From an uncultured Rhodospirillales bacterium (GTDB lineage: Bacteria > Pseudomonadota > Alphaproteobacteria > ATCC43930 > CGMCC-115725): 64,000 nucleotides of DNA. The notes under the pieces are model-generated. The model was given only the letters and a program-made list of their open reading frames with translations. It did not search any database and had not been told where the DNA came from. Both the position numbers and the translations under genes were made by a program. Positions within the stretch are counted from its first letter, which is position 1. Each line of letters starts with the position of its first letter. Shown one piece after another: positions 36,001 through 54,868 of the stretch. The stretch spans positions 1-64,000 of the forward strand of contig CAIJOA010000001.1 in assembly GCA_903822185.1 (NCBI GenBank). Direction: 5' to 3'.

Positions 36001-37389
36001 ATGTCTGCTCAGGAAATGCCGGCCGAAATGTCGCTCGACGCCCGCCTCGTCGCGGCGCGGATCGAACGCTTGCCATTCACCGCCTGGCATCTCGGAGTCG
36101 GCATCATCATCGCCAGCGCCTGGTTCTTCGATGCGGTCGATGCCCTCGCCATTGCCTATGTCCTACCGGTGCTGAACGGGCTCTGGAAACTTACGGCGAC
36201 CCAGACCGGGTTGTTGATCTCGGCCGGTTATGCCGGTCAGGCGATCGGCTCGATCACCGCCGGCTGGGCGGCCGAGCGCTGGGGGCGGACGCCGGTCCTC
36301 CTGGTGACGCTGCTGGTCTTCAGTCTGATGAGTATCGCCTGCGCCTTCGCCTGGAGCTTCGAATCGATGATGTGGTTCCGGCTGATCCAGGGTATCGGCC
36401 TTGGCGGCGAGGTGCCGATCATGATCGCCTATATCAATGAATTCTCAAAGGCGCAGGGGCGTGGCCGCTTCGTCCTTGGCATCCAGGTGCTGTTCGCGGC
36501 GGGGCTCGTCGCCAGCGCCCAATTGGGTGTCTGGGTCGTGCCGCATCTCGGCTGGCAATGGATGTTCTATATCGGCGCGCTGCCGGCGCTGCTCGCCTTG
36601 CCGCTGCGTTTCATGCTGCCGGAATCGGCGCGCTGGCTCGCCAGCAAAGGGCGCTTCGAAGAGGCGGATCGGGTGTTGAGAAAGATCGAGGCGATCGCAA
36701 CACGGCGCGGCCATGTTCTGCCGCCATTGGAGCCGGGCCTGCCGGTGGCGCAACGCGCACCGTGCCGCTTCGGCGATCTGTTCAGAGGGATCTATCTCAA
36801 GCGCACGCTGACCGTGTGGTGTCTGTGGATTTGCTGTTTTGCGACTTCTTACGGCGTCAGCACCTGGCTGCCGTCACTCTATCGCTCGGTCTTCAATCTG
36901 CCTCTACCGCAGGCACTTCACTATGGTCTGCTGCAAACGGTTTCGACGCTGGTCGGAACGATCATCACCGTCTTCATCATCGATATCGTCGGACGTAAGC
37001 CATTGTTCATCATAGGTCTTGCCGGCACGGCGTTGCCGTTCCTGTCGTTCCTCTTTATCGATGCGACGAGCCCCGAAAGCGTTCTCGTGCGCGTCTGTAT
37101 CTCGTACTTCTTCCTGTCGGCGCTGGTGCTGGCGCTGGGCATGTACACGGCGGAACTTTATCCCAACAACATGCGCGCGCTGGGCAGCGGCGTTGCCGCC
37201 GCGTGGCAGCGCAGCGCGGCGACTCTTGGGCCGTTGGTGATCGGCAGCCTGATGCCAAGTCTCGGTCTCGATACGGCCTTCGTGGTCTTCGGCGTGCTGG
37301 CCAGCATCGCGTTCTTCATCTGCGTGTTCTTCGCCATCGAAACGCGCGGCCGTGTGCTGGAACAGTTATCGCCTCAACTCGAGGGATGA
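36001..37389 (+). CDS. MFS transporter, aromatic-acid/H+ symporter type
   Basis: The 462-residue protein has 12 predicted membrane helices and the MFS loop motifs AERWGRTPVLL (loop 2-3) and DIVGRKPLFII (loop 8-9). The WHLGVGIIIASAWFFDAVD start, with an Asp in helix 1, is typical of AAHS-like carriers for aromatic or small carboxylic acids. The start at 36001 follows a GGGGGGAAG site. It is divergent from the flavin reductase operon and is followed 77 bases later by an LLM monooxygenase gene. Confidence 0.9.
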   Translation: MSAQEMPAEMSLDARLVAARIERLPFTAWHLGVGIIIASAWFFDAVDALAIAYVLPVLNGLWKLTATQTGLLISAGYAGQAIGSITAGWAAERWGRTPVLLVTLLVFSLMSIACAFAWSFESMMWFRLIQGIGLGGEVPIMIAYINEFSKAQGRGRFVLGIQVLFAAGLVASAQLGVWVVPHLGWQWMFYIGALPALLALPLRFMLPESARWLASKGRFEEADRVLRKIEAIATRRGHVLPPLEPGLPVAQRAPCRFGDLFRGIYLKRTLTVWCLWICCFATSYGVSTWLPSLYRSVFNLPLPQALHYGLLQTVSTLVGTIITVFIIDIVGRKPLFIIGLAGTALPFLSFLFIDATSPESVLVRVCISYFFLSALVLALGMYTAELYPNNMRALGSGVAAAWQRSAATLGPLVIGSLMPSLGLDTAFVVFGVLASIAFFICVFFAIETRGRVLEQLSPQLEG

Positions 37390-37466
37390 CTCGAAGACGG
37401 GCGTTCTGGCCAAGCTTTTACCGGCGCGCTAGAGGTAGAGCCTCTATCGTGTAGGAGAAAAAGCCG

Positions 37467-38819
37467 ATGGCCGACCGTAACGAGCAGCTGAAATTCGCCG
37501 TCTTCATGTCGGGCGACTCGAATTACCATTTGGCCGGGTGGCGCTTGCCCGAGGCTCATGCCGATTCGGGGCTGAAATTCGAGCGGTGGGCCGAATTCGC
37601 CAAGACCATGGAACGCGGCAAGCTCGATATGCTGTTTATCGCGGACAGCATTGGTCTGGCCGATGCCGACGATCCGGTCGCGACCTCGCAGAATCCGCAA
37701 ACCGACCGGCTCGAGCCTTTCACGATCCTGTCGGCGCTCGCCGCCGTGACCAAACATATCGGCCTCGCCGCGACAGCCCACACCAACTACAACGAGCCGT
37801 TCCACATCGCGCGCAAATTCGCCTCGCTGGATCATATCAGCGGTGGCCGTGCAGGCTGGAACTTCGTCACTGGCGCCAATGCCCAGGACGCGCTGAATTT
37901 CAGCCAGGACGAGCACACGGCGCATGGCGATCGTTATGACAAGGCAGAAGAATTCGCCGATATCGTCAAAGGTCTCTGGGACAGTTTCGAGGACGGTGCT
38001 TTCACCCGGAACAAGGAAACAGGTCAGTATGTGGATGCCAGCAAGCTCCATGTTCTGAATTACAAAGGCAAATTCTATCAGGTCAAAGGCCCGCTCGGCA
38101 TGGCGCGGCCGCCGCAGGGTCATCCCGTCCTGATCCAGGCCGGCAAGTCGGAACCGGCGAAGGAAATCTCGGCGCGGGTCGCCGACGCCGTCTTCACCTC
38201 GCAATCGACGATGGAAGACGCGAAGGTCTTTTACGACGATGTGAAAGGCCGGCTGGCGAAATTCGGCCGCACGCCCGATCAGTTGAAAATCATGCCCGGC
38301 TGCGTCGTCTTCACCGGCCGCACCGCCGAAGAAGCCGAAGAGAAATACCAGCGTCTCGATTCGCTGATCAGCCAGCCGGCGGCGCTGCGGCTGCTGCAGG
38401 AACGCATGGGCGGCGTCGATCTTTCGCCCTATCCGTTCGACGGGCCGCTGCCGGATTTCGAAGGCAATAAGAACCGCATGAGCAATCCGCCGGCGCTGGC
38501 GAAACTGGCGCGGCGTGAAGGCCTCACCATTCGCGGGCTCGCCCTGCGCTTCGCTGCGGCGCGCGGCCATCTGATGTTGCGCGGTACGCCGTCGATGATC
38601 GCCGACCAGATGGAGCATTGGTTCAAAAGCGGTGCCTGCGACGGCTTCATCTTCATGCCGGTCTATCTGCCGGGCGCGCTCGACGATTTCGTCGATCAGG
38701 TCATCCCCGAATTGCAGCGCCGTGGCCTCTTCCGCAAGGAATATGAGGGCAAGACGCTGCGCGAAAATCTAGGCCTTGCCCGGCCGCCGAACGGTTTCAC
38801 GGTCGCGAAGACAAGTTGA
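37467..38819 (+). CDS. LLM flavin monooxygenase, NtaA/SnaA/DszA family
   Basis: The 450-residue TIM barrel has the family blocks AGWRLPEAHAD, IADSIGLAD, FASLDHISGGRAGWNFVTG and HPVLIQAGKSEPA. Members use FMNH2 from a separate reductase to oxidise C-N, C-S or similar bonds (nitrilotriacetate, dibenzothiophene sulfone and others). The substrate cannot be told. A reductase gene lies 1.6 kb away. It is convergent with the tautomerase gene, with only 9 bases between them. Confidence 0.92.
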   Translation: MADRNEQLKFAVFMSGDSNYHLAGWRLPEAHADSGLKFERWAEFAKTMERGKLDMLFIADSIGLADADDPVATSQNPQTDRLEPFTILSALAAVTKHIGLAATAHTNYNEPFHIARKFASLDHISGGRAGWNFVTGANAQDALNFSQDEHTAHGDRYDKAEEFADIVKGLWDSFEDGAFTRNKETGQYVDASKLHVLNYKGKFYQVKGPLGMARPPQGHPVLIQAGKSEPAKEISARVADAVFTSQSTMEDAKVFYDDVKGRLAKFGRTPDQLKIMPGCVVFTGRTAEEAEEKYQRLDSLISQPAALRLLQERMGGVDLSPYPFDGPLPDFEGNKNRMSNPPALAKLARREGLTIRGLALRFAAARGHLMLRGTPSMIADQMEHWFKSGACDGFIFMPVYLPGALDDFVDQVIPELQRRGLFRKEYEGKTLRENLGLARPPNGFTVAKTS

Positions 38820-38828
38820 TTCTGATCG

Positions 38829-39239
38829 TCACAAAAGAAACTGCAGGGTCTGCGGCGGGCCGAGATCGCGTTGGGCGCGCGTGAGACCCCCGCGGCCATA
38901 TGAGGCCGGGTCGATTTCGTGAATGACGATATAGGTTTCGTCCCGTAGCGCGGGTCCGAGGACGGTGCGCAAGAGGGCCATCATGTCCGCCATGAATTCC
39001 GCTTTCTCGGCTCTGCTGTTCGTCCCTTTGCCGATTACTGCATCGACCTGCGCTGCCAAAGACACGGGCTCGCCGGCGATGCTCCAACCGCCGTGGCCGA
39101 TTTGTTCGACAACAACCGACGTGCCGTCGATGGGTTTGCGCATCCCCGATGTCATAAGATCGGTGGTGCCACGCTGTAGATGTGTGACTTGCTGCACGGT
39201 GAGGGCGGGCCCGAACACGGTAATGCGAATGAACGGCAT
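38829..39239 (-). CDS. Tautomerase-superfamily protein
   Basis: The 136-residue protein starts Met-Pro-Phe, giving the N-terminal catalytic Pro after Met removal. Two beta-alpha-beta units are recognisable (IRITVFGPALTVQQ and YIVIHEIDPASYG), the length of a fused dimer of 4-oxalocrotonate tautomerase. It probably isomerises a ring-cleavage or keto-acid intermediate. It lies downstream of the LysR gene on the same strand. Confidence 0.85.
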   Translation of the reverse strand: MPFIRITVFGPALTVQQVTHLQRGTTDLMTSGMRKPIDGTSVVVEQIGHGGWSIAGEPVSLAAQVDAVIGKGTNSRAEKAEFMADMMALLRTVLGPALRDETYIVIHEIDPASYGRGGLTRAQRDLGPPQTLQFLL

Positions 39240-39315
39240 TGTTTTTCTCCGTTGAACGATACGGGAAAATTACGCCGCTCTCATCGTCTCGAAAAATCGA
39301 TATTTCTTAATCGGA

Positions 39316-39336
39316 TCGTTCAGAAAAACTGAACGA
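39316..39336. promoter_or_regulatory. Inverted repeat upstream of the tautomerase gene
   Basis: TCGTTCAG (39316-39323) and CTGAACGA (39329-39336) are perfectly complementary around AAAAA. Neither side has a T run, so an operator is more likely than a terminator. It lies 77 bases before the tautomerase start and 10 bases after the lysR stop. Confidence 0.5.
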
Positions 39337-39345
39337 AGAAAATTG

Positions 39346-40221
39346 CTATCGCCGCGCAGACGATAGGCTCGGCGGGATCGTCTCCAGGAGAATTTCTCTT
39401 AACCGCGCCGATGCCGGCGTCAGCGGCCGGCCGCCACTATCAAGACACAGCTTGACGGTGGGGAGCCGCGGCAGACCGGAGCGGCCCTGAAGCGTGACCA
39501 GATGGCTTGGCACGCTTGGGCTCGTCCGAACCGTAATGCCGAGTCCGGCATCGACCGCCGACCAAAGCGCGGAAAGGCTGAGGCTGGTAAACTCGACCCG
39601 CCATGGAATCTTGGCAGCGTCGAGGGCGGCGATCGCCGCCGCGCGGAAAAAGCAGGGCGGATTGAACAAAGCGAGCGGTACCGGCTTCACGCGCGGCCAG
39701 GGCGTTTCCTTGCCGACCCACATCATCGGAAGCGTCGCGATGACCTCTGCATCCGGCCGCGCTTTAAGGCACCAGATCACAGCGAGGTCGAGTTGCCCCT
39801 TATCGAGACGTTCGGTGAGCACATAATTCCGGTCAACGGCTGCTTCGACGCGGACGTTCGGATGCGCCCGCTTGAAGCGGCCAAGCGCCGCCGGCAACCA
39901 GCTCTCGGCGAAATCGCCCTGTAATCCGATCCGTACCTTACCGTCGATGCCAACGCCTTTGACGGCTGCAACCGCTTCGTCATTAAGTTCGATGACCCGG
40001 CGCGCATAAGTGAGAATGACCTCGCCCGCTTCGGTCAAAACCAGGCCGCGTCCCTGTTTGCGAAACAGCGGTTCGCCGATGCGCTTTTCAAGCTTGTGAA
40101 TCCGCTGGCTGATCGCGGATTGAGACCGGCCCACTTGTTCGGCTGCACGGTTGAAGCCGCCGAGATCCTGCGCCACGACAAGCGTGCGCAGGACATCCAT
40201 GTCGAGATCGATCCGGGGCAT
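39346..40221 (-). CDS. LysR-family transcriptional regulator
   Basis: The 291-residue regulator has an N-terminal winged HTH (about 8-66, with GGFNRAAEQVGRSQSAISQRIHKLE) and a periplasmic-binding-type effector domain. It is divergent from the binding-protein/aldolase pair at 40371-42308 across a 149-base spacer, the usual position for a LysR activator of that pair. It may also act on the tautomerase gene behind it. Confidence 0.93.
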   Translation of the reverse strand: MPRIDLDMDVLRTLVVAQDLGGFNRAAEQVGRSQSAISQRIHKLEKRIGEPLFRKQGRGLVLTEAGEVILTYARRVIELNDEAVAAVKGVGIDGKVRIGLQGDFAESWLPAALGRFKRAHPNVRVEAAVDRNYVLTERLDKGQLDLAVIWCLKARPDAEVIATLPMMWVGKETPWPRVKPVPLALFNPPCFFRAAAIAALDAAKIPWRVEFTSLSLSALWSAVDAGLGITVRTSPSVPSHLVTLQGRSGLPRLPTVKLCLDSGGRPLTPASARLREILLETIPPSLSSARR

Positions 40222-40237
40222 GGCTAAGGTTCTCCAC

Positions 40238-40250
40238 GATAAGCTTTATC
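40238..40250. promoter_or_regulatory. Candidate LysR operator
   Basis: GATAA-GCT-TTATC is an interrupted dyad 17-29 bases upstream of the lysR start in the divergent spacer. It resembles the T-N11-A box of LysR sites. Confidence 0.45.
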
Positions 40251-40370
40251 AAATGACTCTTTTCTCGATGGGCGCAAGTCTCGTTACTCGACGATGACCG
40301 TTCGCCGCGATTAAACTATCCGAAAGCCGATCAAATAAACGATCGCGCAAACGAACTTGGGGAGGACGAG

Positions 40371-41465
40371 ATGGCTGTTCGATTCATCTCTTTGCGATGC
40401 GCGATGGCGGCATGGCTCTGTCTTGCGGCAACCGTCACCTCGGCACAAACGATCCCGATGTCGCCGGCGCTGCAAGCGGTTATCGATGGGGCGAAGAAAG
40501 AAGGGTCACTGACCCTTTCCCATGGCGCGAACGTCCTGGGCGGCGCCGAAGGCGCGCGGGTCGCGGGGGCGGGCATCAAGGCGATGTTCGGGATCGACAT
40601 CACCATCAATTACGTGCCCGGTGCGTCTTTCGGCATTCTGGCGAGCCGCATTTACACCGAGATGCAGGCAGGGCAGCCCGCGACGACGGACGCCTATAAC
40701 GGCACGGCGGTCGAGATCACGCCTTATCTTAATCGCGGCCTGTTCCGAAAAATTCCCTGGACCGAACTCTATCCCAGCCGCATCACCGCTGTGATCGATG
40801 AAGCGGATGGCCGCGCTTTGCGGGTCACAACTAAGCTGCCCGGTATTCTCTACAATAAGCGCACCGCGCCGGAATTCGGCAAGGCCGTGGTCATGGCCGA
40901 TCTGCTCAAGCCCGAGTTCAAAGGGAAGGTCATCACCGAGCCGTATCTCGCCGGCTTTGACGTCCTCGTGGCGAAGGATGTGTGGGGATACGAAAAGATC
41001 GCCGCCTTTGTTCGCGATCTCTCGCAAGTCATCGGCGGTCTTGCCGATTGCGGCGCGGCCGGGCGCGTGGCTTCAGGCGAGTTGCCCGCACTCGCCCTTT
41101 CCTGCGCCGGGGTGCCGGCCCACACGAAGACCTATCGCGATGTCCTCGGCGAAGTCGTTTTGCGGGACGCGGCGATGCGACGCTACGACTATATCGCGAT
41201 CCCGACGAACGCCGCACATCCGAACGCCGCGATCCTCTTCGGCCTCTATATTTCGTCGCCCGAAGGACAGCAGAAAATCATGCACGACCTCTTCGGCGGC
41301 GAACTCGATCTTTACGCCGACACCGAAACGCATCGGCAGATCGCGGCGTTGGAGAAAGAGGGGTTTCAGTTTACCAACGTGACGATCGATTGGTGGGGCT
41401 CGCACGAGACGATCAGCGCGGATTTCGGAAAACTGACCAAGATTATCGCCGACCGGGCGCGATAG
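40371..41465 (+). CDS. Orphan periplasmic substrate-binding protein, paralog of 32195-33280
   Basis: The 364-residue protein has a signal peptide ending at TSAQ and the same family blocks as its paralog: IDGAKKEG, GGAEGARVAGAGIK, LLKPEFKGKV, GFDVLVAKDVWG, TNAAHPNAAILFGLY and DWWGSHE. GGGAGG precedes the start. No permease or ATPase lies nearby. It is the first gene of a two-gene unit with the class II aldolase, probably under the divergent LysR protein. Confidence 0.88.
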   Translation: MAVRFISLRCAMAAWLCLAATVTSAQTIPMSPALQAVIDGAKKEGSLTLSHGANVLGGAEGARVAGAGIKAMFGIDITINYVPGASFGILASRIYTEMQAGQPATTDAYNGTAVEITPYLNRGLFRKIPWTELYPSRITAVIDEADGRALRVTTKLPGILYNKRTAPEFGKAVVMADLLKPEFKGKVITEPYLAGFDVLVAKDVWGYEKIAAFVRDLSQVIGGLADCGAAGRVASGELPALALSCAGVPAHTKTYRDVLGEVVLRDAAMRRYDYIAIPTNAAHPNAAILFGLYISSPEGQQKIMHDLFGGELDLYADTETHRQIAALEKEGFQFTNVTIDWWGSHETISADFGKLTKIIADRAR

Positions 41466-41558
41466 CTTTCCGACGGCTGAATCATTGACCGCGGGAAGAC
41501 GATTCCTCTAACTGTGTCTCGCCGGACCGCAGTTTCCGGGAATGAAGGAGCGAGCATC

Positions 41559-42308
41559 GTGAGCGATCTGGAACGCAGCTATAAAGACTTGGTCATTGCC
41601 AACCGCGTTCTGGCGAATCAAGGCGTGGTCGATGCCTATGGCCATGTCAGCATGCGTCATCCCACCAATCCCGAACGGTTTTTCCTCTCGCGCTCGCGCA
41701 GCCCCGAACTGGTCGAGGAACGCGACATCATGGAATTCACCCTCGACGGCAAGGTCGTCGGTGACGATCGCCGTCCGCCCTATCTCGAACGCTTCATCCA
41801 TGCCGGTATCTATGAGGCGCGGCCCGAGATTACCTCGGTGGTGCATAGCCATGCCGAAGAGACGCTGCCTTTCGGTCTGACCGACGTAGCGATGAAACCG
41901 ATGATGCATGTTGGCGGGCTGCTGGGTCACTCCGTGCCGGTCTGGGATATTGCCGAGAAGTTCGGTTATGAAACCAACCTGCTGGTCACCAATACCGACC
42001 ATGGCCGCGACCTCGCCAAACGGCTGGGGCAGGGCAAGGTGACCTTGATGCGCGGCCACGGCTTTGCCGCGGCGGGGACCACCATCCAAGAAGCGGTTCG
42101 CTTGTCGATTATTCTGCCGATCAACGCGACCGTTATGACCGGGGCGATGGGCCTCAGCGACCGTTTCAAACCCCTGGCACCGGGCGAGATTGAAATACGC
42201 CGTGTCTATGATCCGGCCGCTTCCGAATCCTGGCGTGCCTGGGAATATTGGGCGCGTTGCGCCGGCGTCACCGATCTTCTCGGCGAGGCGCCGCAAAGCG
42301 CCCGATAG
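41559..42308 (+). CDS. Class II aldolase/adducin-family protein
   Basis: The 249-residue protein has the zinc-site motifs VHSHAEE and RGHGFAAAG and the family opening YKDLVIANRVLANQGVVDAYGHVSMR. It could be a fuculose-phosphate-type aldolase or a decarboxylase/lyase of a non-sugar acid; the catabolic surroundings favour the latter but do not prove it. The start is a GTG at 41559 with AAGGAG 8 bases upstream; the GTG at 41514 is less likely. Confidence 0.88.
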   Translation: MSDLERSYKDLVIANRVLANQGVVDAYGHVSMRHPTNPERFFLSRSRSPELVEERDIMEFTLDGKVVGDDRRPPYLERFIHAGIYEARPEITSVVHSHAEETLPFGLTDVAMKPMMHVGGLLGHSVPVWDIAEKFGYETNLLVTNTDHGRDLAKRLGQGKVTLMRGHGFAAAGTTIQEAVRLSIILPINATVMTGAMGLSDRFKPLAPGEIEIRRVYDPAASESWRAWEYWARCAGVTDLLGEAPQSAR

Positions 42309-44977: not shown

Positions 44978-45018
44978 TATGACACGAGCCTAAAACCGCG
45001 CATTTTGTGGAGAGTTTG

Positions 45019-45408
45019 ATGACATCAACCATTCAACCGCTTTCGACCGCACGCGAATCGTCGCGTTTGATCTCGTCCGAGAAAGTGACCGGCAGTAAGG
45101 TCGAGAACACCAAGGGCGATAGCCTCGGTCATATCGAAGAGATCATGATCGATAAGATTTCCGGCCGGGTCGGCTATGCGGTTCTGAACTACAACAGTTT
45201 CCTCGGCATGGGCGGAAAACTCTTCGCACTGCCGTGGGACGTGTTGAAATTCGACACACAGCGCGATGCTTACATCATCGGAATTCCCGAGGAACGGTTG
45301 AAGACCGCGCCGAGCTTTGACGCCGGTATCCTGCCGGATATGGGCGACCCTGCCTGGGGTAAGGCGGTGCACGATTATTACGGATCGGGCGCCGACTGGT
45401 ATCTCTGA
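45019..45408 (+). CDS. PRC-barrel domain protein
   Basis: The 129-residue protein has one PRC-barrel (about 25-95: VENTKGDSLGHIEEIMID ... VGYAVLNYNSFLGMGGKLFALPWDVL). PRC-barrel proteins of this stand-alone type bind partner proteins or RNA and are often stress-induced. The start at 45019 has GGAGAG 5 bases upstream; a GTG at 45007 is less likely. It has its own promoter region and terminator. Confidence 0.9.
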   Translation: MTSTIQPLSTARESSRLISSEKVTGSKVENTKGDSLGHIEEIMIDKISGRVGYAVLNYNSFLGMGGKLFALPWDVLKFDTQRDAYIIGIPEERLKTAPSFDAGILPDMGDPAWGKAVHDYYGSGADWYL

Positions 45409-45419
45409 CTAATGCGATA

Positions 45420-45450
45420 ACGGGCCGCTCTTTGAAGCGGCCCGTTTCTT
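45420..45450 (+). terminator. Rho-independent terminator
   Basis: ACGGGCCGCT (45420-45429) pairs with AGCGGCCCGT (45436-45445), loop CTTTGA, followed by TTCTT. It separates the PRC-barrel gene from the convergent binding-protein run. Confidence 0.92.
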
Positions 45451-45456
45451 ATAAGC

Positions 45457-46560
45457 TCAACGCGCGGCCTTGCGGGTGTCGCCGACGAAACGAATCGCCG
45501 CTTCAAGATCGTCGGCGTGATCCTCGCGCTGCGTTTCGAGGTAGGTCGCGCCTTTGACCGGCTGACGCTCCGGCTCGGACACCGACGACAGATCCTGACG
45601 GCGCGAATCCTGCAGCGTCGCTTTGGCCAAGCCCAGCTGGATCTCTTTGCTCAATACCCAATTGATGAAGACGCGCGCCGCGTTCGGGTGCGGGCGGTTG
45701 TTATAGACATAGAGCGATGACCCGCCGGTGCCCATCTCATTGACTTCGGGCTGATTGCCGAAAGCGCGGACATCCATTTTGACGCCGGCGGCGAGATAGG
45801 TCTCAAGATGAGCGCGGACGAAGGGACCGATTCCGACCCAGCCATTTCCGCGCGCCAGCGCTTCCACGACTTGATCTTGTTGCGGCAGAAAGACAACCTT
45901 CTGTTCAGTGATCAGCTTGGCGAGTCCATCGTCACCGAGGCGCGACCGCAGGACGTAAGCGAAAGTCTGTCCCGAGCCCGACAAGGTCGGATCGTGCCAA
46001 ATGATCTTCCCTTTAAGCTCCGGCTCCAACAAAACCTTGAGACCCAGTTTGGCGATCTTGTCGGGCGAGACTTGCGCGGTGTTGTAGTAGGGCGACTTCA
46101 GCGCGGCGGACATGCCGAACACATACTTGCCCTGCTTGTCCATAAAGACATGGTCCCAACTGCCCCAGGTGGCCGCGTCCTTGATATCTGCTGCGACAAA
46201 TTCAGGCGCCAACGGGTCCAGCGCGCCGTCCTTGGCGAGGAGATATCCGGCTGCCGCGCCCGATACCGAGACATCCCATAAATATTTGCCGACCGACCGC
46301 TCGGTTTTGACGCGCGCCACATATTGCGCGCCGGGGATCGACGAGACGGACAGCGCGATCTTCGGATAGGCCTTCGCCCATTCTTCCTGAACGTATTTGC
46401 GCATCTCGATGTTGGGTTGCGAATCCAGCACCAGCGCGCCTTCTTCGTTCGCCGCAGCGACGGTCTTGTCCCAGCCGGCTGTGTCTTGTGCAAAAGCCGG
46501 CTTCATTAGAACGAACGATGCGAGCAGCATCGCGGCGTACGAAATTCCACGCAGGGTCAC
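45457..46560 (-). CDS. Orphan periplasmic substrate-binding protein (Fbp-type)
   Basis: A signal peptide ending AFAQ precedes a 340-residue solute-binding fold with VAAANEEGALVL, LLEPELKGKIIW, TGGSSLYVYNNRPHPNAARVFINWVLSKEIQ. It belongs to the broad Fbp/spermidine-binding class but is more distant from the two paralogs at 32195 and 40371. No permease or ATPase gene is near. It is the last gene of a seven-gene minus-strand run that contains three further binding proteins. Confidence 0.86.
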   Translation of the reverse strand: MTLRGISYAAMLLASFVLMKPAFAQDTAGWDKTVAAANEEGALVLDSQPNIEMRKYVQEEWAKAYPKIALSVSSIPGAQYVARVKTERSVGKYLWDVSVSGAAAGYLLAKDGALDPLAPEFVAADIKDAATWGSWDHVFMDKQGKYVFGMSAALKSPYYNTAQVSPDKIAKLGLKVLLEPELKGKIIWHDPTLSGSGQTFAYVLRSRLGDDGLAKLITEQKVVFLPQQDQVVEALARGNGWVGIGPFVRAHLETYLAAGVKMDVRAFGNQPEVNEMGTGGSSLYVYNNRPHPNAARVFINWVLSKEIQLGLAKATLQDSRRQDLSSVSEPERQPVKGATYLETQREDHADDLEAAIRFVGDTRKAAR

Positions 46561-46620
46561 GGGGTGCCTCCTTGGTTGGGGCGTCGGTGATGTCGTCAGG
46601 AAGACTCCGCGGGGTGCGGA

Positions 46621-47016
46621 TTAGATCGTGATGCCGGCCCAGGATTCTTCGGGATCGGCCACGTCGAAGACGATGCCGAACGGATCGCGATATTTGGTTT
46701 CGAGGTTTTGCCCGGCGCGCGCCTGCATATGGAATTTGCCGCCATTGTCCTTGATGCGCTGATCCATGCCGGCCATTTCGACCGGGTCATCGACGACGAA
46801 GCCGAGATGATGCAGCCCGACGAAATCCTTGCCGCGCTCGTCGCCGGCCAGTTCGTCGGACCGGAACTTCAGCAGAGTGACGTTCATCACCCCGTCCGAC
46901 ATGCTGCAGGAATGATCGGTTTCGCGATGTTTCTTGAAGCCGAAGACGGTTTCATAAAACGCCGCTTCGCGCTTGATGTCGCTGACCGTGATCGCGATGT
47001 GCCGCAGCTTGGCCAT
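46621..47016 (-). CDS. VOC (glyoxalase/dioxygenase-fold) protein
   Basis: The 131-residue protein has the paired beta-alpha-beta-beta-beta fold of the VOC family: LRHIAITVSDIKREAAFYETVFGF in two halves, then HHLGFVVDDPVEM and KYRDPFGIVFDVADPE. Possible metal ligands are His7 region, His70 region and a late Glu. Members are dioxygenases, isomerases or lyases; activity is not predictable. It sits between two binding-protein genes. Confidence 0.85.
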   Translation of the reverse strand: MAKLRHIAITVSDIKREAAFYETVFGFKKHRETDHSCSMSDGVMNVTLLKFRSDELAGDERGKDFVGLHHLGFVVDDPVEMAGMDQRIKDNGGKFHMQARAGQNLETKYRDPFGIVFDVADPEESWAGITI

Positions 47017-47092
47017 GTTCCACCCTATTTTATATTTATCGTGCCGTGTCGTCTTTGCGCGATCCTATCCGAAAGCGGCTGGCGCTGTCGAT

Positions 47093-48097
47093 CTATTGCA
47101 GCGGTACGACATAGCGTTTGTCGATGAGGTCATCCGCATTGACGTCGGCCTTCACCATGCGCTGCGACTTGTACCAATCGATCTGGCGCTTCACATCGCC
47201 CACATCGAGACGTGCCTGCCCATCGATATAGGGAATGGTCCGGCGGATGAGATCGGGTGACTGGCCGACGTCCTTGGCGATCAAAGCGACGATGTCTCCG
47301 GCCTCAGCAGAGTCGCGTGGCTTCTCGTCGGGGCCGGTGAAGGCGTCGTGATATTCCTGCGCGCCTCTGCGGAAGGCCTTGAGGAACCGTTTGATCGTGT
47401 CGCTTTTGTCGTTGGCGGTTTTGGCCGTGGCGAAGATGCCGCCGATCTGGATGCCCAATTCATCGCCGGCCCAGCCAAGCACCTTGGCGCTGCCCTTTTG
47501 CACCAAGGGCATGACCGGCGTGCCGGGGCTGATCATCATATCGACCTGATTGCCGGCCAGCGCCGATAGCATGTTCGAATTGGATTGCAGCGGCACGATA
47601 CGAACCTTGGCCAGATCGACATGATATTTCGCCGTGATCAGGGCCAGCACATAATGACCGACGCCGCCCATCTGACTGATGCCGACGGAACGGCCCGACA
47701 GATCGGCATAGGATTTGAGGCCGTTCTCGGCGGCCTGGTTGGAGATGGCGAAGACCCAACCCTGGAAGTTCGGCACCTCGCGGACATAGCCGCCGATGAG
47801 ATGGACCGAACGTCCCAGGTTGTAGAGACCCGCGGTGAGGCCCGCGATGCCGATATCGATGTCGCCCGAGGTCACCGCGACGGCGATCGGCTCGCCGGTT
47901 TCGAAATAGACCGGCTGAAGATTGATGCCCTCGGCGGCGAAATAACCCTTATCCAGTCCGATGAAGGTCGGTCCGCTGCTGGCGATCTTTATGAAGCCGA
48001 CTTTCAGATCTTCCGCCGCGGCGGGTTTGCCGACGGCGACCGCCAGCAATACGGCCAGGCTTATCGCGATCCGATTGCGGCCTATTCCCCCAAACAT
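47093..48097 (-). CDS. Orphan NMT1/TauA-type substrate-binding protein
   Basis: A signal peptide ending PAAAE precedes an NMT1-like fold: DLKVGFIKIASSGPTFIGLDKGYFAAEGI, VAVTSGDIDIGIAGL, LSGRSVGISQMGGVGHYVLA. The class binds nitrate, taurine, sulfonates, thiamine precursors and aromatic acids, so the ligand is open. It lies 28 bases downstream of another binding-protein gene of the same class. Confidence 0.88.
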   Translation of the reverse strand: MFGGIGRNRIAISLAVLLAVAVGKPAAAEDLKVGFIKIASSGPTFIGLDKGYFAAEGINLQPVYFETGEPIAVAVTSGDIDIGIAGLTAGLYNLGRSVHLIGGYVREVPNFQGWVFAISNQAAENGLKSYADLSGRSVGISQMGGVGHYVLALITAKYHVDLAKVRIVPLQSNSNMLSALAGNQVDMMISPGTPVMPLVQKGSAKVLGWAGDELGIQIGGIFATAKTANDKSDTIKRFLKAFRRGAQEYHDAFTGPDEKPRDSAEAGDIVALIAKDVGQSPDLIRRTIPYIDGQARLDVGDVKRQIDWYKSQRMVKADVNADDLIDKRYVVPLQ

Positions 48098-48125
48098 CGA
48101 TATCCCCTGTTATGCGTCGAAACGG

Positions 48126-49154
48126 TTACGGCAGCGCCGGCGGCAGGCCGACGCGTTTGATGGCGGCGTCGATGAACGATAGATCGGCATGTTTCGCGAC
48201 GTCGAGTTTGGTTTTGACGAAGCCCAGCTCATACATCGCATCGAGATTGCTTTGCAGCGCAGCGGTGTCGGGCCGCGCGCTCGGGTCGCGATAAACATCC
48301 TCGCCGGGCAGCAGGTAATAGGTCGCGATCGTCTCGGGCGATTGTTTCGTCGCCTTGGCCAACATCTGGATGGCTTCGTCGCGATTGCCGGGGACGCGCA
48401 TCCAACGCGTTACCCGCACCACGTCGTCGAAAAAGTCGGCCAGTGCTGCCCGGTTCTTATCGAGGAATGGGGTGCGTGCGCAGTAGAAAGCGAACTCGGT
48501 CACGCCCAGCGCGTCGCGTTCCTTGAACAGGCTGCGGGTCTGTGCCGCAACTTTCGGATCGTGGGTATAAAGCGCATTCATCGTGACGAGGTCGGCTTTG
48601 CCCTGCACCAGCATCGGGGCCATGTTCGGCAGGGACGCCTCGATCAGGGAATAATCTTTTTTATCTTCGAGTCCGTGCTTTTTCATCATATAGCGCATGG
48701 CGATATCGACGACGCTGCCGGCGCCGTTCGAGGCCAGCACCTTGCCCTTCAGGTCCTCGATTTTCCGGATCGGACTGTCTTTGAGCACCATGAAGTCGTT
48801 GGAATAGGAACCGGCGACGCCGTCGCGATAGCCGTCGGCGATGAGGCGGAGGTCGTCCATCTTGGCCCCGTCGAGGGCGATGCCGAACGAGGAATAGCCC
48901 AGCGTCGCGATGTCGATGTCGCCGGTGGCGAGGGCCGTGATCTCGACCGACGAGGCCTGGAATAGCACCATCTCGACGTGGTAGCTTTTGCCAAGTTGTG
49001 GCGCGATGTCGGACCGGTGCAGCAGGAACGCCGTCATCTTTTCCGGCGTCGCCTGATAGCCGATGCGGATTTTCAGGGGATTGGCATGGGCGGCAGCGGA
49101 CAAGACGCCGATGGCGGTCAGCATGGCGATGAGACTCGATACGGTTCGCTTCAA
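48126..49154 (-). CDS. Orphan NMT1/SsuA-type substrate-binding protein
   Basis: A signal peptide ending AAHAN is followed by LKIRIGYQATPEKMTAFLLH, a SsuA-like opening, then VEITALATGDIDIATLGYSS, IEDLKGKVLASNGAGS and a helical C-terminus. It resembles sulfonate- or taurine-binding proteins most, but this rests on the general class only. Neither SsuB nor SsuC genes are present here. It follows the MetE-like gene by 30 bases. Confidence 0.88.
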   Translation of the reverse strand: MKRTVSSLIAMLTAIGVLSAAAHANPLKIRIGYQATPEKMTAFLLHRSDIAPQLGKSYHVEMVLFQASSVEITALATGDIDIATLGYSSFGIALDGAKMDDLRLIADGYRDGVAGSYSNDFMVLKDSPIRKIEDLKGKVLASNGAGSVVDIAMRYMMKKHGLEDKKDYSLIEASLPNMAPMLVQGKADLVTMNALYTHDPKVAAQTRSLFKERDALGVTEFAFYCARTPFLDKNRAALADFFDDVVRVTRWMRVPGNRDEAIQMLAKATKQSPETIATYYLLPGEDVYRDPSARPDTAALQSNLDAMYELGFVKTKLDVAKHADLSFIDAAIKRVGLPPALP

Positions 49155-49184
49155 GAAAACCTCCTCGGTCGAATTCGCGCGGCG

Positions 49185-50285
49185 TCAGATTTCGGCAACG
49201 GCCTTATGCAGATCGAGGACGTCACCGATTGTCTCGGGCGTCGCGCGCTTCAATTCCGGCGTCGGCGGATGGGTATGCGTGATCGCCCCGAAGGCTTGCG
49301 GTGTCGGGGGGCGGCCAAGGCCACAGAACGTGCCGACGCCGAAGTCCGAGACGACGGCTTCGGCCATCGCGATGCGCTTTCTGGCACCCTCGACGCCGTC
49401 GGCGAGATTGATGAGGCCGATATAAAGCTTCGTGCCTTTGGGCAGCTTCAACGCTTTGAAATGGGCGTAATCCTCGGGCGTATGTTCCGGAATGACCGGC
49501 ATATGCACATAGCCGACCGGGCGGGTGAGTCGGTCGAAGATCGCGTTGGCCGCATCGACCAGAACGCGATTGTCCTGACCGCCTGCCGGATCGTGATGCC
49601 AGATCGAGCAGACATGAAAGCCAAGCTCGACCTGCGACGGGATGCGATTGGCGAGCCAGGCGACGGAGTCGGCCATTTGCTCGAGCGTCCAGTGGAAGAC
49701 TTTGTGCAGCGGCTGGTCCCAGGCATCGGGACGGCGCAGATATTCCTCATGCTCGGCTTCCATGCCGATATCGAGTTGGATGGTCAGATCCTTGGCCGGA
49801 ATGGCGGCGACGATGCCTTCGACTTCATGCAGCAACGCGGCGCGCGACAGCGGAAGCAATTGCTCGGCTGGTAATTCGATGCAGAAGGCCGAGGTGCCGG
49901 GACCCGCCAGAGTCGCCTGATAGCGCGTGCCGGCGGGGATAACGCCCTTGTCGCGCAGCGCCTTGAACTTCGCATAAGACGCGGCGTGGTTTTCGGCATA
50001 ACCGTAAGGGCCGAGTTTCAGGTCTTTGACGTCGCAACCGGCCTTGAGGCGGAAGATATCGACCGGGTCCTTGCCGCCGGCATTGAGCGGCACCTTCTTG
50101 TATTTCTCCAACATCGGATGCGCTTCGAAGGTACGGCGCGCGGCGCCGGACCAGCCGATCTGCTCGCCGTCGGGAATACGCGGCGCCAACGGACCAAGAT
50201 GCTCGGCGACGCATTCGAAGACGTTTTCCGCGCCGCGCAGCGGCACGCTTCCGGTCAGCAAAACTTCACGCGCCTGCTTCGCCAT
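49185..50285 (-). CDS. Second MetE/UROD-like TIM-barrel protein
   Basis: The 366-residue protein is a distant MetE/uroporphyrinogen-decarboxylase superfamily member. Candidate zinc ligands are H224 and C226 (GFHVCSIWHH) and C321 (GVGTFCGLGRPP). It differs strongly from the MetE-like protein at 34025-35179, so it is another branch and not a recent duplicate. The start at 50285 has GGGAG about 6 bases upstream. It lies between an LLM monooxygenase gene and a binding-protein gene. A thiol-alkyl transfer role is inferred only. Confidence 0.8.
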   Translation of the reverse strand: MAKQAREVLLTGSVPLRGAENVFECVAEHLGPLAPRIPDGEQIGWSGAARRTFEAHPMLEKYKKVPLNAGGKDPVDIFRLKAGCDVKDLKLGPYGYAENHAASYAKFKALRDKGVIPAGTRYQATLAGPGTSAFCIELPAEQLLPLSRAALLHEVEGIVAAIPAKDLTIQLDIGMEAEHEEYLRRPDAWDQPLHKVFHWTLEQMADSVAWLANRIPSQVELGFHVCSIWHHDPAGGQDNRVLVDAANAIFDRLTRPVGYVHMPVIPEHTPEDYAHFKALKLPKGTKLYIGLINLADGVEGARKRIAMAEAVVSDFGVGTFCGLGRPPTPQAFGAITHTHPPTPELKRATPETIGDVLDLHKAVAEI

Positions 50286-50344
50286 GGCGTTCTCCCTCAT
50301 GCTATTGCGTGAAGACGCGTCCGGGCGTCCTCATCGGAAATCGT

Positions 50345-51538
50345 TCAGGCGGCCACATCTTCCAGCGGCACGCGCTTGACCTCATGCGCCTTCAGCGCCG
50401 GCAGAACGTCGCGGGCGAAGCGCCGGATCTGCTCGATGAACATTTCGTGGGGCATGGCGCCGCGATTGAGACTGACCTGGATGCTGTTGGCCCCGGCGGC
50501 CTCGGCGCGGGCGATGATGCGCCGGGTCACTTCCTCGGGCGTGCCCAGCGGCATGGTCTCGGCGCTGCGCTCGAAATCGGCCAGCGTCATGTTGCGATAG
50601 GCTTCGCGCGACCGTGCGGCCGATTTCATGTTCTCGGGGCGGACGTAATCGCTCGACCCTTGCGAAACATAACCGGCGTCGCGCTGCTTCGCGGTTTCGG
50701 TGAAGTTGCCGTGGCTGAACAGCGTCTGGTTGAAATAAAGGAAGTAGGGCGCGTATTCACGCACTGCCGCCGCCTTGCTGTCGGCGACATAGGCGCTGAT
50801 GCCGATCGACAGATGTTTCGGCGTAATCGTATGGCCGTGCGCGGCAAGGCATTTGGCGTAATAGCGGACGATGTCCTGTTCCAACCCGCCGGGGACGAGG
50901 CCGGGCGTTATCGTCAGGTTATGCTTGCCGGCGAATTCCAGCGATTCCTTGCTGCCGGAAATCGGCACCCAGATCTCGGGCGAGTTTTGCACCGGGCGCG
51001 GCCACATCGCCACGTCTTTGTAGGACCAGAATTTTCCTTCGTAGGAAAAGACTTCTTCCTTCCAGGCGCGAGTGATGATCTCGAACGCTTCTTCGAAACG
51101 CGGCCGCGAATCCGCCATGGCGACGTTATGGACCTGGTATTCGCGGGGGATGCCGCGGGCGAAACCGGCGATCAGCCGCCCGTTCGACATGCAGTCGATC
51201 ATCGACAGTTCTTCGGCAAGACGCAGCGGCTCGTGCAGCGGCAGCAGATTGCCATAGATCAGCAGTTTGAGATTCTTCGTCCGTTGCGCCGCCGCGGCGG
51301 CCATCAGGTTCGGCGAATTCATCAGCCCATAGGGCGAGCAATGATGTTCGTTGAAGCCGATGCCGTCGAAGCCCAGCTTGTCCATTTCCTCCCAGGCGTC
51401 GAGATGCTCGGCATAGGTCTTCGTCGCGACCTTCGGGTCGAAGAATTTCTTCGGCAGCGGATAGGGCAGCTCGCCATTCACCTTCAATGAATCGAGATGC
51501 TGGCCATAGGGCAGAAGATCGAAGACGAAAACTTTCAT
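50345..51538 (-). CDS. LLM-class flavin-dependent monooxygenase (luciferase-like)
   Basis: The 397-residue barrel has FDGIGFNEHHCSPYGLMNSPN, LLPLHEPLRLAEELSMID, NGRLIAGFARGIPREYQ and PEIWVPISGSKESLE, all typical of bacterial luciferase-like monooxygenases. It differs from the NtaA-type enzyme at 37467. Reduced flavin could come from the reductase at 35201-35845. The substrate is unknown. It follows the binding-protein gene by 13 bases. Confidence 0.92.
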   Translation of the reverse strand: MKVFVFDLLPYGQHLDSLKVNGELPYPLPKKFFDPKVATKTYAEHLDAWEEMDKLGFDGIGFNEHHCSPYGLMNSPNLMAAAAAQRTKNLKLLIYGNLLPLHEPLRLAEELSMIDCMSNGRLIAGFARGIPREYQVHNVAMADSRPRFEEAFEIITRAWKEEVFSYEGKFWSYKDVAMWPRPVQNSPEIWVPISGSKESLEFAGKHNLTITPGLVPGGLEQDIVRYYAKCLAAHGHTITPKHLSIGISAYVADSKAAAVREYAPYFLYFNQTLFSHGNFTETAKQRDAGYVSQGSSDYVRPENMKSAARSREAYRNMTLADFERSAETMPLGTPEEVTRRIIARAEAAGANSIQVSLNRGAMPHEMFIEQIRRFARDVLPALKAHEVKRVPLEDVAA

Positions 51539-51551
51539 GCGCGTTACTCGA

Positions 51552-52529
51552 TTACGGCTTCACGGGCGTGAATTTGGTCGTGTACATCATCTCGTCCTTG
51601 GGCTTTTCCTGCAGAATGCCCATGTCGAGGAACGAGTCTTTCAGCATTTCGACTGCCTTCGGGTTGAAACTGCCGTCGCTGCTGATCGAGGCGATCTCAT
51701 AATCATAGGTCCTGCTCATCACCGCCTCGGTTTGGTTCAGTTGCTTGGCGGCGAGGGCGACGGTTTCGGCCTTGTGGGTCTTCATGTAAGCGACGCCCGC
51801 GAAGGTGGCCTTGAGGAAGCGTTCGACTTGGTCGGGATGCTCTTTCAGGAAGCTGTTCCGCGCATAGACGACCTGGGTGATGAAGTCGGGTACGTACTGC
51901 GCCATGCCGACGAGGATATGGCCGCGGCCGTTTTCTTCGAGCTGATAGCCGGCCTCGGTTGCGCCCATAAAGCCATCGACCTGATGGGTAAGGGTGGCGG
52001 CAAGGCTCGCCTCGAAGGCGCCGGTCGCATTGGTGCGGATGCCGTCGGGCCCCCAGCCCTGATGAATCGACAGCCGGCGGACCAGCCATTGCGGTACCGA
52101 GCCGTTGCTGGCGACGGCCAACAGCTTGCCCTTCAGGTCATCGACGGTCTTGATCGGCGAATCTTTGGCCAGCACGACTGAGAAGCTGGTCGGGGCGCCG
52201 ACCAAGGAGGCGACCGCGATTTCCGGCGCGCCCTTCGAAACAAACGCCATGGTCGGGCCGCCGCCGAAGCCCATATCGACGCTGTCCGCGGTGATCGCCG
52301 CCTGCAGCTTGGCGTCGCCGGTCAGGGTGATGATCTCCACGTCGAGCCCATATTTGGCATAGATGCCCTCCGCCACGGCAACATCCGCCGGCAGAAGGGT
52401 GAAAAGGATGTTGATCCCTTTGCCGAGACGGATCTTGTCGGCGGCATGGCTGGGTAGAGGCGTCATGACCAGCAGCAACGTCGCGGCGATCAGCAGACGG
52501 CGGGTCAGGGAGGCGGGACGGGAAGACAT
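51552..52529 (-). CDS. Orphan NMT1/SsuA-type substrate-binding protein, first gene of the run
   Basis: The start at 52529 is set by TAGGAG 5 bases upstream; an ATG at 52571 is rejected. A signal peptide ending PSHAA leads to DKIRLGKGINILFTLLPADVAVAEG, LQAAITADSVDMGFGGGPT and VDDLKGKLLAVASNGSVPQW. The ligand is unknown. It is the promoter-proximal gene of the seven-gene run ending at 45457. Confidence 0.88.
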   Translation of the reverse strand: MSSRPASLTRRLLIAATLLLVMTPLPSHAADKIRLGKGINILFTLLPADVAVAEGIYAKYGLDVEIITLTGDAKLQAAITADSVDMGFGGGPTMAFVSKGAPEIAVASLVGAPTSFSVVLAKDSPIKTVDDLKGKLLAVASNGSVPQWLVRRLSIHQGWGPDGIRTNATGAFEASLAATLTHQVDGFMGATEAGYQLEENGRGHILVGMAQYVPDFITQVVYARNSFLKEHPDQVERFLKATFAGVAYMKTHKAETVALAAKQLNQTEAVMSRTYDYEIASISSDGSFNPKAVEMLKDSFLDMGILQEKPKDEMMYTTKFTPVKP

Positions 52530-52860
52530 GCTTGCTCCTAAGGCGGCACGAACGCCGCTGGCGAAGATCATTGAAAGGAAAAGGATTCGTGGGGGTTTGG
52601 TGAGCGCAAAAGCGGCACGCGGACGCAGATGCTGCGCAAATCTCCTCCCATAATATTGCCGTCTCGCCCTTGTTATGGCGGCGGTGCTTCGGCCGGTAGT
52701 TGAGCATTTGGCCCGGCTCGGCGCAACCCTGACGCGGGCACCGGGTTATCTACGGAATGTGGCATAGATTGCCCACGTGGTGGGCTGGAGCTGTTGATCA
52801 ATCAGCCTACCTGATGCCTAATCGTTCTAAGGTCCACACACTCTCTCAAAGGGCGTGCCC
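52530..52860. other. Divergent intergenic region, no gene seen
   Basis: This 331-base spacer separates the minus-strand binding-protein run from the BLUF gene. It contains the 8-base palindrome TTGATCAA near 52795 and a TATTAT on the minus strand near 52654 that could be a -10 element. I see no convincing reading frame, tRNA or strong hairpin. Confidence 0.6.
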
Positions 52861-53277
52861 ATGATCACCCTCGTTTATGTCAGCGCCGCACGGCGGCTTT
52901 TCAGTCCGGAGAAACTGTCTGAATTGCTCGCGATATCGCGACGCAATAATGAGGCAAAGGGACTCACCGGAATGCTGCTTTATGCCGACGGCAATTTCAT
53001 GCAGGCTTTGGAAGGCGAAGCGGAGATCGTGGATGCGGTAACGGCAAAGATCGAACGCGATCCACGTCATCACGCCATGAACCGACTCATCCGTATGCCG
53101 ATTACCGAAAGACAGTTCGGCCACTGGTCGATGGCCTTACGCCAACTTGATGATCTGCCCGAAGCCGATCGGCTCTCCTGTGAAGCACTTGTATCGGCAA
53201 AGCTCGATGGAAAGCAGTCAGACACGCCGAGCGTTGCGCTTAAATTATTGCAAAGCTTTCGCCAGTCGATGAAATAG
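52861..53277 (+). CDS. Stand-alone BLUF blue-light sensor
   Basis: The 138-residue protein is a BLUF domain that would bind FAD. The photochemically needed residues are present: Tyr6 (LVYVS), Asn30 (RRNNEAKGLTG), Gln48 (FMQALEG) and Trp89 (FGHWSM). A helical tail of about 40 residues follows, with no enzymatic output domain, so it must signal by protein contact. The start at 52861 has AAAGGG 7 bases upstream; a GTG at 52855 is less likely. It is a single-gene unit with its own terminator. Confidence 0.93.
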   Translation: MITLVYVSAARRLFSPEKLSELLAISRRNNEAKGLTGMLLYADGNFMQALEGEAEIVDAVTAKIERDPRHHAMNRLIRMPITERQFGHWSMALRQLDDLPEADRLSCEALVSAKLDGKQSDTPSVALKLLQSFRQSMK

Positions 53278-53291
53278 AACCCAGAAGCGAT

Positions 53292-53320
53292 AAGGCCGCG
53301 CCTGTCAGCACGGCCTTTTT
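53292..53320 (+). terminator. Rho-independent terminator of the BLUF gene
   Basis: AAGGCCG (53292-53298) pairs with CGGCCTT (53311-53317), with a 12-base loop, ending in TTTTT. Confidence 0.85.
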
Positions 53321-53773: not shown

Positions 53774-54868
53774 ATGTCAGACCAGACATATCTGGCGATA
53801 GACAACCTTTCGGTTGGCTCGGGGAGGAATGCGGTGATACCTCTATTGGATCGATCTCCCGATACGCTTGACCGGTGGCAATTTCCGGTGCGGCATATTT
53901 TCGAGACGAAGCGGTTTGAAGCCGCGCGCAAACATGTATCTCACCGCACTCATGGTCGTTGCGAGATCGCGACAGATTCGCGCAAAGGCTTTCATTATGG
54001 ACTTTCCGCGGCGCCGCTGAAGCGCACCGGCATCGTCCTTCTCAGCACGGACTCGGAATGCGAGTGGGATTCGGTCAATCGCTTGCCGGATGTTTCGCCG
54101 TTATCGCTGCATGTGTCGTTGAGCGGCTCTTACGATGTCGAATGGCGTCAGGCCAAAACCAGCGTTGTCGCCGGCAACGCTCTTTTCCTCGGCCAGGGCA
54201 GTCGAGTCGTCAAACATCACGCGCGCGGTCAAAGCGAACAGATTTTGGTCTTGTTCGACATCAAATCGTTCGAACGCGTACTCGCAGACGAATTCGACGT
54301 GCGGCTCGACCGCGCCTTACAGTTCGAACCGATGCACGCGCTTGAAATCAGCAGTCATCCCTTTCTGTTCGATTATCTGCGGCTGGTGATACGCGATTTT
54401 TTCTGCAAAACGCCGATGGGTGCTCATCCCGTTCTGAAATCCCAGAACGAGAATCTTCTCTTGTCGCTGTTGTTGCGGGTCGTTCCGCATAACTATTCGC
54501 GGCATCTCGACGTGGTGGGCGCCGCCGTGCCAGTTCACGTCAAACGCGCGGAACGGTTTCTGGTCGATAATTTCGATCGGGATCTGACGCTGGAAGAGGT
54601 GGTTCGGTCGGCCGGCACGAGTGTCCGAACGTTGCAATATTCCTTCCGGGATTTTCGCGGCACCACGCCGATGCGTTTCCTGAAAGAGCTGCGTTTGAAC
54701 GCTGCGCGCGATCTCATTCATCGCATGAGCGATGGAGTGCATTCGCTCGGGAATATTGCGGCGAAAGCCGGTTACCCCGACCTTTGCAAGTTTTCACGCG
54801 ATTATAAAGAACGGTTCGGCGAGCCGCCGTCGACGACGCGAAAACGGCTCGCTTTACTCAGGGACTAA
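53774..54868 (+). CDS. AraC-family transcriptional regulator
   Basis: The 364-residue regulator has an AraC-binding-like N-terminal domain of about 200 residues and a C-terminal double helix-turn-helix (about 265-358: DLTLEEVVRSAGTSVRTLQYSFRDFRGTTP and LGNIAAKAGYPDLCKFSRDYKERFGEPP). The layout resembles regulators of aromatic catabolism. It is convergent with the nitroreductase gene, with only 8 bases between stops, so its target is more likely elsewhere in the island. Confidence 0.92.
   Translation: MSDQTYLAIDNLSVGSGRNAVIPLLDRSPDTLDRWQFPVRHIFETKRFEAARKHVSHRTHGRCEIATDSRKGFHYGLSAAPLKRTGIVLLSTDSECEWDSVNRLPDVSPLSLHVSLSGSYDVEWRQAKTSVVAGNALFLGQGSRVVKHHARGQSEQILVLFDIKSFERVLADEFDVRLDRALQFEPMHALEISSHPFLFDYLRLVIRDFFCKTPMGAHPVLKSQNENLLLSLLLRVVPHNYSRHLDVVGAAVPVHVKRAERFLVDNFDRDLTLEEVVRSAGTSVRTLQYSFRDFRGTTPMRFLKELRLNAARDLIHRMSDGVHSLGNIAAKAGYPDLCKFSRDYKERFGEPPSTTRKRLALLRD

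Follow-up and report, generated by a model that had tools for sequence, protein, structure and literature searches.

A seven-gene run with four solute-binding proteins

The 64,000-nucleotide window analyzed here, to which all coordinates without a contig label refer, belongs to contig C1 (78.6 kb) in the 4.27-Mb genome of an uncultured Rhodospirillales bacterium (G000). Seven minus-strand open reading frames (ORFs) span positions 45457–52571, and in the order of transcription encode a solute-binding protein (SBP1), an LLM-class monooxygenase, a MetE-like protein, two further solute-binding proteins (SBP2 and SBP3), a VOC protein and a fourth solute-binding protein (SBP4), with gaps of 13, 44, 30, 28, 76 and 60 bases between them (Table 1). 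From sequence comparison, this run appears to be one product of a genome-wide expansion of solute-binding proteins (SBPs). A sequence-only reading had described seven co-directional genes spaced by 13–76 bases, with three NMT1/SsuA-type binding proteins and one of Fbp type, and no permease or ATPase. The ORF list and Pfam searches bear this out, and none of the 84 domains of the permease family PF00528 found in the genome lies on contig C1. The nearest transporters are of other kinds, a Liv-type importer at 60804–65257 (named by eye, which here and below means from a reading of the sequence) and the MFS gene listed in Table 1.

Table 1. Genes of the seven-gene run, in order of transcription, and of a second cluster in the window
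Feature	Coordinates	Strand	Evidence
SBP1, NMT1-type solute-binding protein, subfamily sub0, first in run	51552–52571	-	PF09084, 93.5 bits
LLM-class flavin-dependent monooxygenase	50345–51538	-	PF00296, 173.6 bits
MetE/UROD-superfamily protein	49185–50300	-	Fold match to 3rpd; invariant H229-x-C231, H266, C326
SBP2, NMT1-type solute-binding protein, subfamily sub1	48126–49154	-	PF09084, 54.1 bits
SBP3, NMT1-type solute-binding protein, subfamily sub2	47093–48097	-	PF09084, 66.0 bits
VOC (glyoxalase/dioxygenase superfamily) protein	46621–47016	-	PF00903, 52.6 bits
SBP4, Fbp-type solute-binding protein (SBP_bac_8)	45457–46560	-	PF13416, 45.6 bits
Second cluster: Fbp-type SBP	32195–33280		
Second cluster: dienelactone hydrolase	33297–34028		
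Second cluster: MetE-like Meth_synt_2 protein	34025–35179		
Second cluster: flavin reductase	35201–35845		
Second cluster: MFS transporter	36016–37389		
Second cluster: LLM monooxygenase, second in window	37467–38819		
Second cluster: SBP-like protein	40371–41465		Weak match below Pfam cut-offs

The layout suggests that the run is probably transcribed as a single unit. No terminator-like site was found on the minus strand in 45000–53300 (the scan gave 6 in total, against 8.9 expected by shuffling), and there is one promoter-like match on that strand, at 47091–47062 (4 in total, against 2.5 expected), numbers that carry little weight for or against a single transcript. SBP1 may in fact start at 52529, an in-frame ATG corresponding to Met15 of its longest frame, rather than at 52571. 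A gene for a BLUF blue-light sensor lies at 52855–53277, divergent from the run, and one for an AraC-type regulator at 53774–54868; either could regulate the run.

Expansion of NMT1-type receptors

PF09084 and PF13379 together mark at least 209 genes in this genome, a lower bound, as the best 150 of 252 candidates were scored for the former and the best 150 of 227 for the latter. I also used an SBP profile built for this work, which recovered 217 NMT1-type SBPs in 113 fetched stretches (921 kb, 907 genes called with a home-made codon-score caller, so that starts are uncertain and some calls, such as L304, are wrong). These 217 include 207 of the Pfam union and 10 new ones, two of which are fragments (96 and 155 residues), while two members of the union were not recovered; a search with a profile of subfamily sub1 added one further member, on contig C12. 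At the first-look stage, 252 NMT1 candidates were counted in the window's genome and 281 in G001, a metagenome-assembled genome (MAG) of an uncultured Rhodospirillales bacterium of the same genus, against 4–121 in 23 genomes from other genera of the family and at most 45 in 16 relatives from the order or class. A phylum-wide search with a strict E-value gave at most 43 candidates, against 250 in the window's own genome, among the 43 of 299 rows listed. G014, a 6.5-Mb genome from another genus, has 121 first-look candidates and 11 sub1 SBPs, and perhaps represents a second, smaller expansion.

Many of these genes stand in tandem, in arrays of 17, 10, 5, 5, 5, 4, 4 and 4 genes, plus shorter ones. 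The longest array, of 17 genes, exceeds chance: when 217 genes were placed at random among an assumed 4200, 2000 times over, same-strand runs never had more than 5 genes. The 217 SBPs fall into 35 subfamilies at an average-distance cut of 68%, on which this division depends, the seven largest having 54, 28, 27, 25, 18, 15 and 11 members. The best paralog within the genome has a median identity of 54% and none reaches 90%, which suggests that the expansion is old. The four binding proteins seem to lie in this run without a pump because the lineage has apparently multiplied such proteins to more than 200, the majority of them probably using a small number of pumps in common.

The three NMT1-type proteins of the run belong to three of these subfamilies: SBP1 to sub0 (54 members), SBP2 to sub1 (28–29 members) and SBP3 to sub2 (27 members). 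The proteins had been called unlike each other, which holds, and not simple duplicates, which needs correcting, as each NMT1-type SBP is one of 27–54 paralogs in its own genome. The nearest paralog of SBP1 (C48:97263–98225) is 55% identical. SBP4 is a different case; among solved structures, iron-binding SBPs come closest to it (E 1e-4). Including SBP4, the genome has 18 PF13416 matches, of which 16 exceed the cut-off, a number that rules out an Fbp-type expansion on the NMT1 scale. An expansion of the TTT/Bug family (PF03401) was likewise ruled out, with three matches over the cut-off in the genome and the SBPs of the run matching PF09084 and PF13416.

The AlphaFold model of SBP1 (pLDDT 92.6) has the NMT1/SsuA/THI5 fold, and a fold search places Thi5 on top and lists DszB, in the structure of its C27S mutant, beside SsuA and TauA. 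As Thi5 and DszB share this fold, the orphan SBPs might be new enzymes, or else decaying duplicates. I consider this most unlikely. Cys27 has a known role in DszB, and SBP1 contains no cysteine, so that this residue has no counterpart and a DszB-like reading was rejected. Decay is argued against by the lack of any internal stop within the 150 listed PF09084 matches, and by the ratio of nonsynonymous to synonymous substitution (dN/dS), which has a median of 0.24 over 36 reciprocal-best SBP pairs between the window's genome and the fetched G001 stretches; the paired receptors are therefore under purifying selection. A signal-peptide-like N-terminus was detected, with a crude test, in 185 of the 217 SBPs and in 256 of 690 neighbouring proteins.

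Receptors greatly outnumber importers

NMT1/SsuA-type receptors are known to partner ABC importers. This genome has 84 PF00528 domains of all kinds, and 53 permease loci. Under a rule that joins genes less than 150 bases apart, the SBPs form 142 co-directional runs, of which 21 (39 SBPs) include a permease and an ATPase, one (1 SBP) an ATPase only, and 120, holding 177 of the 217 SBPs, neither. This count misses the importer at C11:143544–148177, because 294 bases separate it from its SBPs. PF00528 is absent within 3 kb of 169 of the 217 SBPs, and the distribution is uneven: a permease lies within this distance for 24 of 183 members of large subfamilies, against 24 of 34 members of small ones (Fisher p 2e-11). 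Even so, for each of the seven largest subfamilies, one to four permease loci lie no more than 3 kb from a member.

For sub0, the subfamily of SBP1, the importer-linked members are the nine SBPs of a single set at C48:110013–121471, where five SBP genes, an ATPase, two permeases and four SBP genes follow one another in one direction. The 17-gene array (C48:85763–103208) lies 6.8 kb from this set, and the surroundings of the whole locus (C48:85763–121471; L040, L041, L042) include TauD-like, amidohydrolase, FAD monooxygenase and hydantoinase genes. In G001, the counterpart has three SBPs, an ATPase and two permeases, and its array has eleven genes; ten reciprocal-best pairs of the 17-gene array are collinear between these two species. 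For sub2, the subfamily of SBP3, three members are importer-linked, two on contig C46 and one on C42. Elsewhere, five SBPs accompany an ATPase and a permease at C11:343152–350534. Ten tandem SBP genes at C39:70154–80348 (L048) belong to sub3 (25 members). A single permease locus, C39:31881–34022, lies within 3 kb of sub3 SBPs, three of which are beside it.

The SBP runs contain 235 genes that do not encode SBPs. When these are clustered by BLAST, the largest groups (identified by eye) are permeases (27) and ATPases (23), followed by LLM monooxygenases (9, including that of the window), amidohydrolases (7) and Rieske proteins (5), making LLM the commonest non-transport partner.

The abundance of SBPs in runs devoid of importer genes could also mean that the orphan SBPs do not feed importers, and instead sense or buffer periplasmic ligands, in chemotaxis, two-component systems or regulation. 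A two-member neighbour cluster (C30:116205–118502) does resemble, by eye, a membrane sensor protein. Sensing or buffering of ligands has been proposed for orphan TTT receptors. Rosa et al. (2018; PMC5994714) report TTT SBPs close to genes for histidine kinases, and refer to BctDECBA as a case of sensing. However, no sensor-like cluster of three or more members was seen by eye among the 235 neighbours, and the SBP2 subfamily is importer-linked in many loci of relatives (see below). I regard a sensing or buffering role as an unlikely alternative.

Importer pairing of the SBP2 subfamily in relatives

A profile of sub1, at E ≤ 1e-50, matches 29 proteins in the window's genome, 25 in G001, 11 in G014, 7 in G009, and 1–5 in 13 other genomes of the family; of the 61 genomes searched, the remaining 44 gave no match. 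Of 26 loci viewed in other genera, 11, from 10 of 15 genomes, have ABC ATPase and permease genes adjoining the sub1 SBP. The best match of all 11 importers among the 907 genes fetched from the window's genome is the same locus, C11:143544–145845, with 52–67% identity for the permease and 66–79% for the ATPase, against at most 40% and 53% for the other importers of this genome. Two sub1 SBPs lie just upstream of this importer, and the equivalent unit in G001 (L336) contains two sub1 SBPs, an ATPase and two permeases. By sequence, the sub1 receptors are homologous to the C11 importer's own SBPs. The SBPs of seven of the 11 importer-linked loci are closest to C5:8070 (48–56%), on a contig with no PF00528 match. 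Thus, in many relatives the SBP2 family has a dedicated importer, and in the window's genome one homologous importer locus was found against 28–29 receptors.

The sequence-only reading had held that permease and ATPase genes immediately beside homologous copies of the locus would speak against its proposal; such genes were found for the SBP2 subfamily but not for the locus as a whole. It had also left open whether the receptors share distant importers or serve a periplasmic role. Between these, sharing is better supported, by the SBP2 pairing and by the split of large and small subfamilies in permease linkage.

The enzymes of the run and its conservation

The LLM monooxygenase falls below every listed NCBIfam cut-off, and far under those of SsuD, SfnG and NtaA/DmoA; for TIGR03565 (alk_sulf_monoox), it scores 29.5 bits with a cut-off of 518.2. 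Full-length orthologs, 69–76% identical, are found in 15 other genomes of the family. With the same query, and 12 first-look candidates scored per genome, 57–80 candidates were counted in each of G006, G015, G019, G020, G024, G049, G050 and G051 (genera g6 and g11), and the family may have a separate LLM monooxygenase expansion.

For the MetE-like protein, relaxing the threshold to E ≤ 10 still gave no Pfam match, to PF01717 or any other family, and NCBIfam gave none at E ≤ 0.001. The best fold matches of its predicted structure (pLDDT 86.4) are B12-independent methionine synthases, including the core MetE 3rpd (Foldseek E 9.2e-8, TM 0.55), whose fold it shares with only 13% identity in the alignment. 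Residues H229, C231, H266 and C326 are invariant across 25 aligned sequences, and the H-x-C...C pattern, also shared with core MetE, is the one expected of a zinc site for thiol-alkyl transfer. The modelled fold and these residues place the protein in the MetE/UROD superfamily, with a putative metal site. The branch with the H-x-C and C ligands (the window's protein and L009–L038) has 42 matches in 20 of 146 genomes; the three members scanned match no Pfam model at E ≤ 10, and no relative was found in the named-genome contigs.

The run had been proposed to mark an undescribed uptake/catabolic system. In favour of such a self-contained and conserved system are the common strand and tight spacing, and the fact that a MetE-like gene next to a sub1 SBP recurs at C48:151249–153299 and G001:C2:630591–633668. 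However, the G001 orthologs of the LLM (71%, L087) and MetE-like (71%, L039) proteins sit in two different neighbourhoods, the latter adjoining, by eye, genes for another UROD/MetE-like protein and for a TRAP-like SBP. No SBP1 ortholog was found in G001; the proteins there that match SBP1 best (55%) are more similar to other genes in the window's genome. Of the 79 loci in an SBP1-type alignment, which may leave out records of the window's own genome, three, all from Umea3_bin-2224, align along almost the entire query at 46–55% identity; the remaining loci reach at most 36%, often over short segments.

The LLM neighbours differ as well. In 15 stretches of 3.4–19 kb around full-length orthologs, the neighbouring genes vary, with an MFS-type gene within about 2 kb in at least six (by eye), and the SBP profile detected clear NMT1-type SBPs in G001 only, plus a weak match (30 bits) in G006. 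From these comparisons, the run is not a conserved seven-gene module, and a self-contained system is very unlikely.

A proposed model of few shared importers

The best explanation, which I hold to be likely, is that many receptors share few importers. Each NMT1-type SBP of the run would be an extra, diverged receptor with its own choice of ligand, serving an ABC importer for which the genome has, at other places, one or a few sets of permease and ATPase genes. SBP2 would dock on the importer at C11:143544–145845, SBP1 on that at C48:114054–116421, and SBP3 on either the C46 importer (about 75.5–76.3 kb and upstream) or the C42 importer (143.7–145.4 kb), so that the receptors broaden the ligand range of a few pumps. 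The run itself would be a lineage-specific catabolic cluster which recruited spare receptors. The LLM monooxygenase would oxidise the imported ligands, with FMNH2 perhaps supplied by a flavin reductase such as that of the second cluster (Table 1), and the MetE-like zinc protein would dealkylate them or transfer thiols. As a guess from the enzyme classes, the ligands could be organosulfur or alkylated compounds.

A more specific form of this explanation is a hub-and-spoke arrangement in this alphaproteobacterial genus, with tens of diverged receptors feeding each of a small number of ABC importers; this is plausible, but I put it forward only tentatively. If true, about 28 receptors would converge on one importer and up to 54 on another, the receptors would be spread through catabolic operons and arrays of 10 to 17 genes, and the receptors would evolve independently of the importers, which would have been lost in places where receptors were retained.

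Several points weigh against importer sharing. The 26 sub1 loci viewed in other genera are drawn from 45 matches, and 15 of them show no importer within the roughly 1.5 kb seen, including all those viewed in G009, G014, G020, G044 and G046; sub1 SBPs without an importer are therefore not peculiar to the window's genus. The best-match test for the 11 importers covered genes near SBPs rather than all 53 permease loci, and the analysis may overlook importers that lie further away than the 2.6-kb flanks fetched, or that belong to other permease families. For SBP1 and SBP3, the cognate importers are assigned from neighbourhood within the genome (for SBP1 also in G001), and SBP4 stands outside the proposed pairings. 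Finally, the 36 pairs used for dN/dS exclude the window's own SBPs, and have a median dS of 0.93.

Relation to known systems

In the sulfonate locus SsuEADCB, an SsuA-type SBP adjoins an LLM monooxygenase, as in the run. Unlike this locus, however, the run has no SsuB or SsuC, its LLM protein is far under the SsuD cut-off, and a MetE-like protein is added. With the TIGR03565 score given above and no PF00528 on contig C1, the run does not fit an SsuEADCB-type sulfonate system.

A textbook ABC importer has one receptor per pump. Sharing on a small scale is known, as the DppBCDF importer of Pseudomonas aeruginosa is served by DppA1-A5 (PMC4206461), and the Borrelia Opp system has five oligopeptide-binding proteins (PMC5736914). 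The arrangement proposed here would be similar in having several receptors per ABC importer, but differs from the five receptors reported for those systems in the numbers, 28–54 per proposed importer, in that most are unlinked to it, and in the SBP family involved.

The closest precedent for the expansion itself is Rhodoplanes sp. Z2-YC6860, for which 434 TTT (TctC/Bug) receptors in 8.2 Mb, and one array of nine, are reported (PMC5994714). There too, one receptor family is expanded in an alphaproteobacterium, with tandem arrays and few membrane partners, and the density is comparable to that of at least 209 in 4.27 Mb found here; a strong excess over relatives is likewise present in the window's genome. 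Unlike in the Rhodoplanes case as described there, the receptors are of NMT1/SsuA type, the longest array has 17 genes rather than nine, and candidate hub importers can be named per subfamily. The TTT expansion and small-scale sharing are thus known; new here are the expansion of an ABC-linked NMT1/SsuA family, the longer arrays, and receptors that can be assigned to candidate importers. Literature searches found no report of an NMT1-type receptor expansion, although one may still have been published. This would make a second family, besides TTT, with extreme receptor expansion.

Orphan receptors in metagenomes usually carry the sulfonate, nitrate or taurine labels of their family. If the proposed sharing is true, the subfamily of such a receptor, instead of its neighbouring genes, could indicate the pump to which it belongs. 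If tens of receptors do serve one pump, the diet would be widened by duplicating the cheap periplasmic part alone.

A second cluster in the window

A second cluster (31400–42308; Table 1) also has no ABC importer. Its content indicates that SBP, LLM and MetE-like genes have been combined repeatedly.

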